From Opitutaceae bacterium (GTDB lineage Bacteria > Verrucomicrobiota > Verrucomicrobiia > Opitutales > Opitutaceae), in NCBI GenBank assembly GCA_016793535.1, contig JAEUHA010000302.1, positions 1-44,180 of the forward strand: a stretch of 44,180 nucleotides of DNA. The letters are read 5' to 3'. A program made the translations under genes and the position numbers. Under the pieces are notes generated by a model. The model was not told the DNA's origin, ran no database searches, and was given only the letters and a program-made list of their open reading frames with translations. Shown here piece after piece: positions 11,622 through 44,180 of the stretch (position 1 is its first letter; the number at the start of each line of letters is the position of its first letter).

Positions 11622-11705
11622 GGGGCAGGGGCAATCCAGCGGGAGCCGGGACGCGCGGAGTGTACGTCGTGCGACCCTGGTGTCAGCGAATATCTCGCCC
11701 GCGCC

Positions 11706-11782
11706 GATCCGTTGGCCCACGGAACACGCGTAATCCACGGAAAGGTATTGGGTATTCCGTGTGTTCCGTGGGCCAACGGATC
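11706..11782. repeat. Inverted repeat, CCCACGGAACACACGG family
   Basis: The arms 11706-11727 and 11761-11782 are perfect 22-bp reverse complements (GATCCGTTGGCCCACGGAAC + AC). The 33-bp loop carries further copies of the CCACGGAA and TTCCGTG words. It lies in the 220-bp spacer between the TonB receptor and the tannase-like gene. The same core word recurs at 43941-44036. Confidence 0.88.
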
Positions 11783-11841
11783 GTATGATTGGGGGAGCGC
11801 GTGCGTACGCGGGTGACACCGCGGGCGCTCTCGTCGCACGC

Positions 11842-22927: not shown

Positions 22928-23019
22928 TAGCGAGTAGTGAGGAGCGAGTAGCGAGCATACACGGACAGACGCCGCCACATCGCCAAGTTCCTACTCGCTA
23001 CCCACTACTCGCTCCTCGC
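22928..23019. repeat. Inverted repeat of GAGCGAGTAGCGAG words between gltB and gltD
   Basis: The left arm at about 22928-22955 contains GAGGAGCGAGTAG (22939-22951), which is the exact reverse complement of 23005-23017. The arms share further GTAGCGAG/CTCGCTAC words in shifted order. It fills most of the 121-bp spacer inside the gltBD operon and has no T-run. Confidence 0.75.
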
Positions 23020-25321: not shown

Positions 25322-25390
25322 AACCACGAAACACACGAAACACACGAAATTCCCGCACCGGGCTTTCGTGTATTCCGTGTGTTTCGTGGT
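25322..25390. repeat. Inverted repeat, CCACGAAACACACGAAA family
   Basis: The arms 25323-25349 and 25364-25390 are reverse complements with 2 mismatches in 27. The right arm ends 5 bp from the trpB2 stop and the left begins 6 bp after the SGNH hydrolase stop, so it fills the gap between convergent genes. A sister copy lies at 28961-29033. Confidence 0.88.
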
Positions 25391-28960: not shown

Positions 28961-29033
28961 ACCACGAAACTCACGAAACTCAGGCCAGGCCGTCGGCCTT
29001 GAATCTTTTCGTGTATTTCGTGTGTTTCGTGGT
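28961..29033. repeat. Inverted repeat, CCACGAAACACACGAAA family, second copy
   Basis: The arms 28961-28978 and 29016-29033 are reverse complements with 1 mismatch in 18 (ACCACGAAACTCACGAAA). The 37-bp loop holds an internal GGCCAGGCCGTCGGCC stretch. It lies between the GH88-like gene and the PHP gene, both on the minus strand. Confidence 0.85.
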
Positions 29034-35336: not shown

Positions 35337-35607
35337 GGTGGGAGGGACTTGACGCCCCGATCGAACGCTCGGCCTCACCTCAGGTCGGGCTCATGCAGTT
35401 GAAAGTTGAAAGATGAGAGTTGAAAGACACGACGCCGCGGGCGCGGGTTGAAATCGCGGTCTGCCGGCAGCCCGCACCGAAAGGTGCCTTCGCTTTCCGT
35501 CTGCCAAACGGTTGTTCGTCCCGTCGAGTTTGGCTCTTTCAACGTTCAACCCTCAACTTTCAGCTGCATGCCTCCGGCTCAGGCCGGGGCGCCAAGCCCC
35601 TCCCACC
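35337..35607. repeat. Split inverted repeat of the GTGGGAGGGGCTT family, interrupted by the 204-bp element
   Basis: The left arm 35337-35358 (GGTGGGAGGGACTTGACGCC...) and right arm 35586-35607 are reverse complements with 2 mismatches in 22 and belong to the same word family as 9953-10026. The copy-2 mobile element (35379-35582) lies between the arms. The simplest reading is that the element inserted into the loop of an existing palindrome. Together they occupy most of the 463-bp gene-free stretch between queC and the deacetylase-like gene. Confidence 0.75.
35379..35582. mobile_element. MITE-like element, copy 2
   Basis: This is the second copy of the element at 16413-16615, same orientation, identical in length over the 194-bp core (35386-35579 against 16419-16612) with about 7 base differences, several of them transitions. 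The ends again carry the GCAGTTGAAAGTTGA-type inverted repeat. The left end reads CTCAGGT and the right end CTCAGG, which as a direct TCAGG repeat might be a target-site trace, but copy 1 does not show it. Confidence 0.8.
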
Positions 35608-41080: not shown

Positions 41081-41154
41081 GTGGCGCGAGCATCCTGCTC
41101 GCGATGATGACCGATCGGCATTCCTGATCCACGGGAGCAGGATGCTCCCGCCAC
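41081..41154. repeat. Twin-hairpin inverted repeat between convergent genes
   Basis: The arms 41081-41102 and 41133-41154 are reverse complements with 2 mismatches in 22. Each arm also folds alone: GCGAGCA-TCC-TGCTCGC (41086-41102) and GGGAGCA-GGA-TGCTCCC (41133-41149). It lies between the convergent oleD-like and cpdB-like genes and has no T-run. Confidence 0.88.
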
Positions 41155-41178: not shown

Positions 41179-43146
41179 TCACTCTGACCGCGGCACTAGT
41201 TCGTACAGCGCCGATCCGTCGGGGTTCTCCTGCACGAGCCGGATCTGCGGGTAGCGGGCAAGGTGCGCGATGCCGCCGGCGCCGGAAACGAAGCGCAGGC
41301 GGATGCCGGGCACGGGCACGATGTGCCAGTTGGCGTCGGCGGAGGGATCGATCTCACCCGCGGCGCGGAAGTACTGCACGAGCGCGTCGCGGTTTTCGTC
41401 CGGGGCATCCATCACGATGGTCGTGCCGTCGAGGCCGGGGAAATTTCCTCCGCCCGAGGCCCGGTAGTTGTTCGTCACGACGATGAAGGTGGCCTGGTCG
41501 TCGAGCGGCCGGCCGGCGTGGCGCAGGTCCACGATCCGGCGCGCCTGCGGGTCGGCGAGTTTTCCGGCCGGCGTGTAGCGGGCAGGCTGGGTGACATCGA
41601 TCCGGTAGGTCACGCCATCGAGGGTGTCGAACTGGTAGGAGCGGAACGCGTCGCTGATCAGGTTCTGCTCGCGCGGTCCCGCGGGATCGATCCGGTTGAA
41701 CTGGCCGGCCGACATCTCGAGCCATTCGCGGACGACGGCGCCGCGGACCTTCACGGCCTTGATGAGGTTGGGATAGACGTAAAGGTCGGCGACGCTGCGG
41801 ATGCTGAGGGTGCCGGCCGGGATATCCGTGAAATATTTCCAACCCTGGCGGCCGCCGGCCTTGAACGGAGAGGCGGCGGACAGCAGCGGCAGCGCCTCAT
41901 ACTCCGTGCCCTGCAGGGCGCGCCGCGCGTAGGCCAGCTGGGCCTGCGCCACGATCTGCACGGACGGGTCGTCCGTCACCTGCGCGAAGTAGCTCATGAT
42001 CGGCGCCCGCGTCCGGGCCACGGCGCCGCGCACGTACTCCAGCGTGCCCTCGTGCTCGGTGCGTATCAGGCTTTCCACGACGGGATCTGCCTCGACCAGC
42101 GGCCGCCGCGTGGTCCGGTCGCGGATCGGCCGGATCGCGGCGCGGCTGCCGGTGACCTGCCATCGGCCGGTGCTCCGTTCGAGCACGAGGTCGATCACGC
42201 CGAGGTGGTCGCCCCAGCGGCCGGGCATCACGGACGGCACGCCGTTGATCGTGCCGCGGACGAGGTCGACCTTCGGATAATCGGCGAAGGCCGCGCCCGG
42301 AAACTCCCCGTGGGAGTGGCCGAAGAGGAGCGCGTCGATGCCCGGCACCTCGGCGAGGCGGGCCACGGAATTTTCCGCGAACCGCGGCGTCTCGCCGCGC
42401 TCGAAACCGGAATGCGGGATCGCCACCACGAGGTCGGCGCCCTTCGCGCGCATCTCCGGCACGTAGCGACGGGCGGACTCCAGAATGTCCTGGGCGGTGA
42501 TCCGGCCGGTGAGGTGATGCCGGTCCCACGTCATGATCTGCGGCGGCACGAAGCCGATCACGCCCACCTTGAGCGCCACCGGGGCGCCGGCGTCATCGGT
42601 GAACGTGCGATCCAGGATGACGTAGGGCGTGAACGCGGGCCGGTCGTTCGAGGGGTCGCCGTCACCGTCGTCGAGCGTGGTGTTGGCGCTGACGTAGGGG
42701 AACTTGGCGCCGGCGATGGCCTGACGCAGGAAGGGCAGGCCGAAGTTGAACTCGTGGTTGCCGATGTTGGCGGCGTCGACGCCGAGCACGTTGAGCACCT
42801 TGTAGGCGGGGTGCACCTGGCCGGCGGCGAGGGGGCGGATGCGCGCCACGTAGTCGCCCAGCGGGCTGCCCTGCAGCAGATCGCCGTTGTCGAATAGCAG
42901 GCTGTTCTTCACCTCGGCCCGCGCGGCCTTGATCAGCGACACCGTGCGCGCGAGGCCGTATTCGGCCGTCGGCTGGTCCTGGTAGTAGTCCCAGGCGAGC
43001 AGGTGCATGTGGATGTCGGTCGTCTCGAGCACCCGCAGCTGCAGGGGGGCGGCGGCGAGGGACGTCGTTATCAGCAGCGCGGCGAGGACGCGCCCGCGGG
43101 GGATCGGCAGGCCACGTGGTCGGCCCGGGGAGTCGGCGGGCTTCAT
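41179..43146 (-). CDS. Exported 5'-nucleotidase / 2',3'-cyclic phosphodiesterase
   Basis: This is a 655-residue protein with a signal region (RVLAALLITTSLAAA). The N-terminal metallophosphatase domain has VLETTDIHMHLLAWDY, LLFDNGDLLQGSPLGDY, IGNHEFNFG, AIPHSGFERG and LLFGHSHGEFPG. The C-terminal substrate domain has TNNYRASGGGNFPGL and runs to about residue 560. This is the CpdB/YfkN/UshA family; the GDLLQGSPLGDY start and length fit the bifunctional 2',3'-cyclic-nucleotide 2'-phosphodiesterase/3'-nucleotidase CpdB. It would salvage nucleotides in the periplasm. Its ATG overlaps the stop of the SpoU gene (ATGA, 43143-43146), so the two are translationally coupled. Confidence 0.9.
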   Translation of the reverse strand: MKPADSPGRPRGLPIPRGRVLAALLITTSLAAAPLQLRVLETTDIHMHLLAWDYYQDQPTAEYGLARTVSLIKAARAEVKNSLLFDNGDLLQGSPLGDYVARIRPLAAGQVHPAYKVLNVLGVDAANIGNHEFNFGLPFLRQAIAGAKFPYVSANTTLDDGDGDPSNDRPAFTPYVILDRTFTDDAGAPVALKVGVIGFVPPQIMTWDRHHLTGRITAQDILESARRYVPEMRAKGADLVVAIPHSGFERGETPRFAENSVARLAEVPGIDALLFGHSHGEFPGAAFADYPKVDLVRGTINGVPSVMPGRWGDHLGVIDLVLERSTGRWQVTGSRAAIRPIRDRTTRRPLVEADPVVESLIRTEHEGTLEYVRGAVARTRAPIMSYFAQVTDDPSVQIVAQAQLAYARRALQGTEYEALPLLSAASPFKAGGRQGWKYFTDIPAGTLSIRSVADLYVYPNLIKAVKVRGAVVREWLEMSAGQFNRIDPAGPREQNLISDAFRSYQFDTLDGVTYRIDVTQPARYTPAGKLADPQARRIVDLRHAGRPLDDQATFIVVTNNYRASGGGNFPGLDGTTIVMDAPDENRDALVQYFRAAGEIDPSADANWHIVPVPGIRLRFVSGAGGIAHLARYPQIRLVQENPDGSALYELVPRSE

Positions 43147-43946
43147 GATCGCTGCCGGACGGCTTCGAACAGGGTGATGATCGTGGCCATCGCGACGTTG
43201 AGCGAGTCGGCCTGGCCGGCCATCGGGATGCGCACGGGCGTGTCGGCGTGCGCCAGCCAGAACTCGCTGAGCCCGTATTGTTCGCTGCCCATGACGACCG
43301 CGAGCGGCCCGCGCAGGTCGACGTCGGAGTAGATTTTTTCCGCGGCGGGCGTTGTCGCCACGGTCCGGATACGCCGTTCCCGCAGCCAGGCGAGCACGCG
43401 GGGGCTCTCGTCGACCACGAGCGGCACGGAGAACAGCACGCCGGTGGAGGCGCGGACGACATTGGGGTTGAAGATGTCGGTGACCGGGTCGCAGACGATC
43501 ACCGCGTGGCAGCCGGCGGCGTCGGCGCTGCGCAGGATCGTGCCGAGGTTGCCGGGCTTCTCGATTGCCTCGACGACGAGCAGGAAAGGCGTGGCCGGCA
43601 GGGCGAGATCCTCGAGCCGCCGCCGCCACTGGGGGGCAACGGCGAGCAGGCCGTCGGGCCGCTCACGGTAGGCAACCTTGGCGAACGCCTCCTTGGACAG
43701 CTCGAACAGCCGGGCGCCGGCGGCTTCGGCCTGGGCGAGCAGGGCGGGTTCGTTTTCACCCAGGAACCAGTCGGGGGCGAAATAGAGCTCCTGCAGCGGC
43801 ACCTTTTTCTCGAGCGCGCGGCGGATCTCGCGGTAGCCCTCGACGAGGAAGACCCCGGCCTCGTCCCGCGGCCGGCGGTCGCGCAGCTTCACGAGCTGCT
43901 TGAGGCGCGGATTCTGGAGACTGGAGATTTTTTCCGGTGAGCCCAC
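43143..43946 (-). CDS. SpoU/TrmH-family RNA 2'-O-methyltransferase
   Basis: This is a 267-residue protein from a GTG at 43946. It begins KISSLQNPRLKQLVKLRDRR and RDEAGVFLVEGYREIRRAL, the substrate-binding domain of RlmB/TrmH-like enzymes. The three knot motifs follow: VVEAIEKPGNLGTILRSADAAG, VMGSEQYGLSEFW and RIPMAGQADSLNVAMATIITLFEAV. It transfers a methyl group from SAM to the 2'-hydroxyl of a ribose in rRNA or tRNA; which one is not clear. The frame is open up to 44075, but those extra residues are encoded by a palindromic repeat and read as low-complexity sequence, so I take the GTG inside the repeat arm. The stop overlaps the cpdB-like start. Confidence 0.9.
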   Translation of the reverse strand: MGSPEKISSLQNPRLKQLVKLRDRRPRDEAGVFLVEGYREIRRALEKKVPLQELYFAPDWFLGENEPALLAQAEAAGARLFELSKEAFAKVAYRERPDGLLAVAPQWRRRLEDLALPATPFLLVVEAIEKPGNLGTILRSADAAGCHAVIVCDPVTDIFNPNVVRASTGVLFSVPLVVDESPRVLAWLRERRIRTVATTPAAEKIYSDVDLRGPLAVVMGSEQYGLSEFWLAHADTPVRIPMAGQADSLNVAMATIITLFEAVRQRS

Positions 43947-44036
43947 GGAACACACGGAAGACACGGAAACGGCCCAAAAGACAAAATCGTTTTCCTCGCG
44001 GTGCGCCTTTCCGTGTATTCCGTGTGTTCCGTGGGC
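43941..44036. repeat. Inverted repeat, CCCACGGAACACACGG family, at divergent gene starts
   Basis: The arms 43941-43969 and 44008-44036 are reverse complements with 1 mismatch in 29, around a 38-bp loop. Each arm, read outward, ends CCGTGTGTTCCGTGGGC, and the GTG-GGC inside it is the most likely start of the gene on that side (minus strand GTG 43946, plus strand GTG 44031). Confidence 0.92.
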
Positions 44037-44180
44037 AAGAAATCGAAGTTCAACGACCAGCCGTTCGCGTATCACCAGGAGATTGAACTGGAGATCAGCA
44101 CCCTCACGAACCTCGGCTCCGGCCTCGGTCGGGTTCCGCTGGCTCCGCCGGCGTCCGCGGCGCCTGGCGCCGATGCTCCG
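44031..44180 (+). CDS. TRAM-domain SAM-dependent RNA methyltransferase, 3' end outside window
   Basis: The first about 50 codons start at GTG 44031 and run off the window. The N-terminus (MGKKSKFNDQPFAYHQEIEL then EISTLTNLGSGLGRV) looks like the TRAM domain at the start of class-I SAM-dependent 23S rRNA or tRNA uracil-5-methyltransferases (RlmD/TrmA group). A Pro/Ala-rich stretch follows before the window ends. Catalytic motifs would lie beyond, so the call rests on the start alone. It is divergent from the SpoU gene. The GTG is in the right arm of the palindrome; in-frame GTGs at 44001, 44013 and 44022 are alternative starts, also in or beside the repeat. Confidence 0.6.
   Translation, partial: MGKKSKFNDQPFAYHQEIELEISTLTNLGSGLGRVPLAPPASAAPGADAP

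Follow-up and report, generated by a model that had tools for sequence, protein, structure and literature searches.

Divergent methyltransferase genes and the palindrome between them

The window analysed here is the whole 44,180-nt stretch of DNA from an Opitutaceae bacterium. Two divergent genes lie at its right end, and the space between them is occupied by a large palindrome with the following features.

43143–43946, minus strand: gene for a SpoU/TrmH-family RNA 2'-O-methyltransferase with an MRM3-like substrate-binding domain; the nearest NCBIfam family is RlmB, below its cut-off
43944–43946, minus strand: GTG with the best support as start of the SpoU-family gene; distance to the core 28 nt
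43941–43969, minus strand: left arm, with the C-type repeat word in 9-bp units; covers the leader and the start of the SpoU-family gene
43970–44007, no strand: loop of 38 nt between the arms
43975–43999, minus strand: conserved core, single-copy, 25 bp, GCGAGGAAAA(G/C)GATTTTGTCTTTTG; proposed shared cis-control site
44008–44036, plus strand: right arm; covers the leader and the start of the RumA/RlmD-type gene
44031–44033, plus strand: GTG with the best support as start of the RumA/RlmD-type gene; distance to the core 31 nt
44031–44180, plus strand: 5' fragment of a gene for a 23S rRNA (uracil-C5)-methyltransferase of the RumA/RlmD type, truncated by the contig end and assigned via its orthologues

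A preliminary description had proposed that both genes encode RNA methyltransferases, and domain and family profiles agree with this on both sides. The leftward gene carries a SpoU_methylase domain scoring 124.3 bits against a Pfam cut-off of 29.7. Of the rightward gene, no more than the 5' end falls within the window, but its orthologues pass both TIGR00479 rumA and Pfam PF05958; the full-length orthologue at locus L256 scores 270.2 bits against the TIGR00479 cut-off of 183.55. Both frames open at GTG-GGC and have recognisable N-termini, VGSPEKISSLQNPR in the SpoU/MRM3-like frame and VGKKSKFNDQPFAYHQEIELEI in the RumA-side frame, which is truncated by the contig end.

The two 29-nt arms stand 38 nt apart and are complementary at 28 of 29 positions; the symmetric palindrome with one mismatch described earlier is thus real, and its arms come from a dispersed repeat. 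Each arm is built of 9-bp units (TTCCGTGTN TTCCGTGTG TTCCGTGGGC) and reads outward as ...CCGTGTGTTCCGTGGGC, a 17-mer with 8 sites in the window at up to 3 mismatches, compared with 0.38 expected and with none of 100 shuffles reaching 8. The palindrome region is predicted to fold as RNA at −61.8 kcal/mol (z = −9.9). Because the units are 9 nt long, the three GTG triplets of each arm share one frame (43964–43962, 43955–43953 and 43946–43944 in the left arm). The window sequence alone cannot pick among them, and the choice rests on relatives, whose comparison favours the arm-terminal GTGs as the starts of both genes, in agreement with the earlier placement of the starts in the arm ends. We infer that both genes use these codons. 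The SpoU frame stays open backwards into the RumA gene.

No Shine–Dalgarno site was found in the arms, which is ordinary in this genome. SD-like sequences precede 4.9% of predicted ATG genes compared with 6.2% in a control window (369 genes of the same genome, simple gene finder), and the lineage appears hardly to use Shine–Dalgarno initiation.

The arms belong to a dispersed repeat

Single-arm matches number 159 and 156 in the 6.6-Mb draft genome, compared with none for the reversed control, and 29 full palindromes meet the strict pattern. The repeat words are of two types, TTCCGTG (C) and TTTCGTG (T). The genome-wide counts derive in part from a 735-kb sample that is biased to repeat-bearing contigs and in which gene starts were predicted by a simple hexamer gene finder. 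Arms of the C or T type face a gene 3' end in 76 cases, with a middle value of about 15–17 nt behind the stop codon, and the density of C/T elements in this genome is 0.27 per kb between divergent genes compared with 1.05 between tandem and 1.30 between convergent genes. The usual position of the repeat is therefore just behind stop codons, and it is depleted between divergent genes. The loops of the other C/T palindromes in this genome are unrelated to one another. In the literature collection searched, no paper contained these repeat words or dealt with palindromes of this kind in Opitutaceae.

When the 735 kb were searched de novo, 171 large inverted repeats came to light, which share one build although their words are many and unrelated. 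Their arms are often tandem 7–9 bp units, their loops are mostly copy-specific, and they often lie behind stop codons. Unrelated arm words include CACGGAACA, CACGAAACA, AGTAGCGAG, AGTTGAGAG, AGTTGAAAG, GCGGATTAC, ACAGGATGA, GGGTCATG and others. Large intergenic inverted repeats lie at loci L036–L095 of the same genome and, within the window, at 11705–11783, 22929–23013, 25323–25390, 28961–29033, 35392–35570 and 41081–41154. A different picture is seen in the related genome G005, where 16 strict T-type palindromes occur and many loops are alike (CCATCGGATTTCTGTCTTTC), in either orientation, which suggests that whole elements were recently copied in that genome.

Start codons with and without the repeat

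The preliminary description had held that the repeat provides the translation start region. Of the 61 outward arms pointing at a gene 5' end, 16 have the terminal GTG in frame, below the one third expected, and only 4, the SpoU arm of the window among them, have it as the predicted start. Start supply as a general role of the repeat was accordingly rejected, and where it occurs it is an exception.

We examined 50 orthologous SpoU loci, 37 of which retain the divergent pair. The content of the site varies among them from C-type words, T-type words and quite different palindromes (at L027, one made of CTCCGTG words) to no palindrome at all, and the start-to-start distance is mostly about 83–102 nt, palindrome or not. 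Palindromes of C/T words (at least 3 words, inverted-repeat score at least 9) occur at the locus in 14 of the 37 genomes with the pair, in most of which the repeat is rare. At a control locus, that of the T-type element at 28961–29033, no C/T palindrome was found in any of 29 relatives, the neighbouring gene being recognised in only some of them; by this comparison the SpoU/RumA locus is unusual. The C and T arm types are scattered on the SpoU tree. In one relative (L012), the site carries a palindrome of a wholly different word (ACAGGATTAACAGGATTAACAGGATTA and its complement, with ACAGGATTA units), and the conserved core described below is missing.

The comparison of 5' ends in relatives with and without the repeat, proposed earlier as a check, bears out the GTG position and at the same time separates it from the arms. 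Where the arms are eroded, both genes are still open with a GTG at an unchanged distance from the loop; the RumA GTG is retained without a palindrome, for example at L025, L029, L033, L034 and L035. In palindrome-free genomes the SpoU start remains a few codons ahead of the residues E-K-I and the RumA start remains GTG, so the position of the starts is independent of the repeat. In the T-type relatives L011 and L017 the SpoU start must lie beyond the arm, since an in-frame stop separates the two. The second codon does track the arm type, being GGC in C-type and GTT in several T-type genomes. Taken with the 4 of 61 arms above, these relatives speak against a repeat that provides the start region.

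A conserved core in the loop

The loop contains a 25-mer, GCGAGGAAAAGGATTTTGTCTTTTG, of which the window copy (43975–43999) differs by one mismatch. At up to 3 mismatches in 25, exactly one match per genome was found in 38 of 252 family genomes, distributed over 7 genera. These 38 genomes are not independent. Seventeen of them have no mismatch, 15 have one, 2 have two and 4 have three, which places 32 at zero or one; the counts pile up there and not at the limit of the search. All 38 adjoin a SpoU N-terminus, recognised by motif or by eye (L210 by eye). Visual comparison suggests that the core aligns with the loops of T-type palindromes (GACGAAGAGGATTCTTTT). Most of the family lacks the core, as do some genomes of the same genus, for example at L009, L264, L268 and L273, and in the rest of the class outside the family there is one partial match only (genome G298, locus L249, 2 mismatches in 22 positions, a sequence match). 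In one genus (L280, L283 and L284) the left core part GCGAGGAAAAG is partly duplicated in tandem beside the core.

Because the 25-mer search had picked genomes by the core itself, a second sample was picked by the SpoU protein alone. Of its 25 same-genus genomes, 19 have a tight divergent pair and 16 of these 19 have the core at up to 2 mismatches (across all 19, zero mismatches in six, one in nine, and 2, 5, 8 and 10 in the other four). Identities were computed with gaps because of register shifts between arms. Over the 19 tight pairs the pairwise identity of the core was 0.894 compared to 0.645 and 0.656 for the arms, 0.655 for SpoU third codon positions, 0.766 for SpoU DNA and 0.561 for a shuffled arm. 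In the 16 genomes that retain the core, its identity was 0.955 compared to 0.67–0.69 for the arms. The arms thus drift near the silent-site level and the core does not.

The distances from the core to the two starts are also preserved. In nearly all core-bearing genomes, those with eroded arms included, the SpoU GTG lies 26–29 nt and the RumA GTG 30–33 nt from the core. Genome G107 (L189) has an extra 9-bp unit, yet an in-frame GTG is found at 31 nt. The pairing of the arms has fared differently, the best pairing in many core-bearing genomes being 15–18 of 26 compared with a mean of 12 and a maximum of 16 in shuffles. A structured leader, which the preliminary description had considered, is consequently not needed for the conservation seen here, as the arms erode and the loop core persists. 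Where the RumA side is rearranged (G054 and G113, at L007 and L259), the arm on the SpoU side is retained, and so is the part of the core next to it. In one draft genome, G133 (L202/L285), the core stands in the opposite orientation between the arms and the distances are swapped to 31 and 28 nt, which could be an assembly error.

Two other roles for the loop sequence were rejected. It is not a repeated element, being single-copy and never found at a second locus, and a regulon motif finds no support, with no second core-like site at up to 4 mismatches in 18 positions in 735 kb of its own genome. An upstream k-mer search likewise found no core-like motif enriched ahead of other genes. No sigma-70-like promoter was found in 43800–44180 by a tool that does not cover the promoter type of this clade.

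Comparison with known systems

The repeat resembles the REPINs, or REP doublets, of Bertels and Rainey (2011, PMC3116915) in its dispersed extragenic inverted doublets, its conserved arms with a less conserved spacer and its hairpin fold; extragenic copies in which a conserved word stands twice, in inverted orientation, around a variable spacer are indeed numerous. It differs in that the arm is not itself a REP. The arm word TTCCGTGTATTCCGTGTGTTCCGTGGGC consists of tandem 9-bp units, about three per arm, with no internal palindrome or REP hairpin and no GTAG/CGTC foot. Arm words on both sides of a Y1_Tnp (RAYT) gene were found at none of 35 loci (5 Y1 genes of the genome that holds the window, 86% complete, and 30 of relatives), with three single weak matches, and G017 and G023 have a palindrome at the SpoU/RumA locus, yet no Y1 gene was found in either genome. 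Mobilisation of the repeat as a REPIN by a RAYT is therefore not supported. True REP-like families do occur by Y1 transposase genes of the same genome (GTAG words at L099, GGGAGCGCGG words at L100). Three Y1_Tnp/RAYT-like genes each have a flanking word family of their own, at L099 1423–2000 (GTAG-REP), L100 388–472 (GGGAGCGCGGACGTCC) and L097 929–2003 (GGGTCTGCCTGTTACATGTTA), so that classical REPIN-like systems coexist with RAYT-less palindromes. With MITEs the repeat shares the form of a short non-coding element with terminal inverted repeats; unlike in MITEs, the interior is not common to the copies in the own genome, G005 with its shared loops being the exception, and no transposase partner was found for the arm word.

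The core has a possible counterpart in the bidirectional promoters with a pseudo-symmetric −10 element (Warman et al. 2026, PMC12825309). It is likewise a short AT-rich sequence at a near-constant distance from two divergent starts, it has a partial dyad (AAAAG N8 CTTTT), and the spacing is compatible with one shared promoter. It differs in that the sigma-70 scan recognised no −10/−35 consensus and in being embedded in a repeat palindrome.

A probable composite site and its alternatives

The core is single-copy, is more conserved than the arms and keeps its spacing, the arms erode without loss of core or starts, and the repeat is lineage-specific at the control locus. Selection appears to act on the loop; exchange between lineages stays a rival to purifying selection, because the C and T states are scattered on the SpoU tree. 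We consider it probable that the site is a composite of REPIN-like arms and, between them, a locus-specific cis-regulatory core serving the divergent pair, of which a bidirectional promoter or an operator is the likeliest form. The core at 43975–43999, held at a near-fixed distance from both GTG starts, would drive or control the transcription of both genes. The arms flanking it are copies of the dispersed palindromic repeat that overlap the short leaders, the start codons and the second codons of both genes, and they would be dispensable. The shared regulator site suggested in the preliminary description thus finds comparative support, and the joint control suggested there is plausible, but the site would be the loop core, and control would act through it rather than through the repeat.

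The original proposal, that the arms themselves are functional and give both methyltransferase genes identical 28-nt leaders and GTG starts, and with them like control, now seems unlikely. Arms and starts do coincide at this locus, the second codon follows the arm type, and 14 of 37 genomes have C/T palindromes here, even though most of these genomes contain few copies of the repeat. Such a role is hard to reconcile with arms whose similarity is near the silent-site level while the core persists, with the rarity of start supply in the genome (4 of 61 arms), and with T-type or arm-less relatives that start elsewhere or retain the GTG without arms. We are equally doubtful of an ordinary REPIN- or MITE-like insertion between divergent genes, with a loop conserved by hitch-hiking or recent exchange of the locus and without regulatory function. 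A core that never occurs at a second locus and that has diverged less, in one and the same set of genomes, than the SpoU coding sequence argues against it, as do a start-to-start distance of mostly about 83–102 nt with or without the palindrome and the absence of the control element from 29 of 29 relatives; the repeat is nonetheless dispersed and intergenic, its C/T labels are scattered on the tree, and the shared loops of G005 indicate that whole elements do get copied.

Two further scenarios strike us as more improbable still. In one, overlapping transcripts would start outside the palindrome and each carry the whole hairpin, whose loop core meets an RNA-binding protein or makes an antisense contact. 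The very stable fold, the location of the core in the loop and the open SpoU frame reaching into the RumA gene are consistent with such an RNA-level element, whereas many core-bearing genomes have lost most of the arm pairing (best 15–18 of 26) and an inverted core is tolerated in one genome. The other, of similarly low probability, extends the composite site: by enclosing the divergent control core, the repeat would give the rRNA methyltransferase pair nearly the same leaders along with the same start and second codons, and the core could flip between its inverted arms, as in G133, making it an invertible shared control site.

The conserved part of this palindrome, as judged from the compared sequences, is the loop, which the preliminary description had not singled out. 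The arms add a class of palindromes that resembles REPINs but for which a link to RAYT has so far not been found. Conserved control elements can thus be masked by a repeat, whose arms draw the eye while the loop is apparently under selection, and the core described here offers a testable candidate for how a little-studied lineage might control two rRNA methyltransferases jointly.
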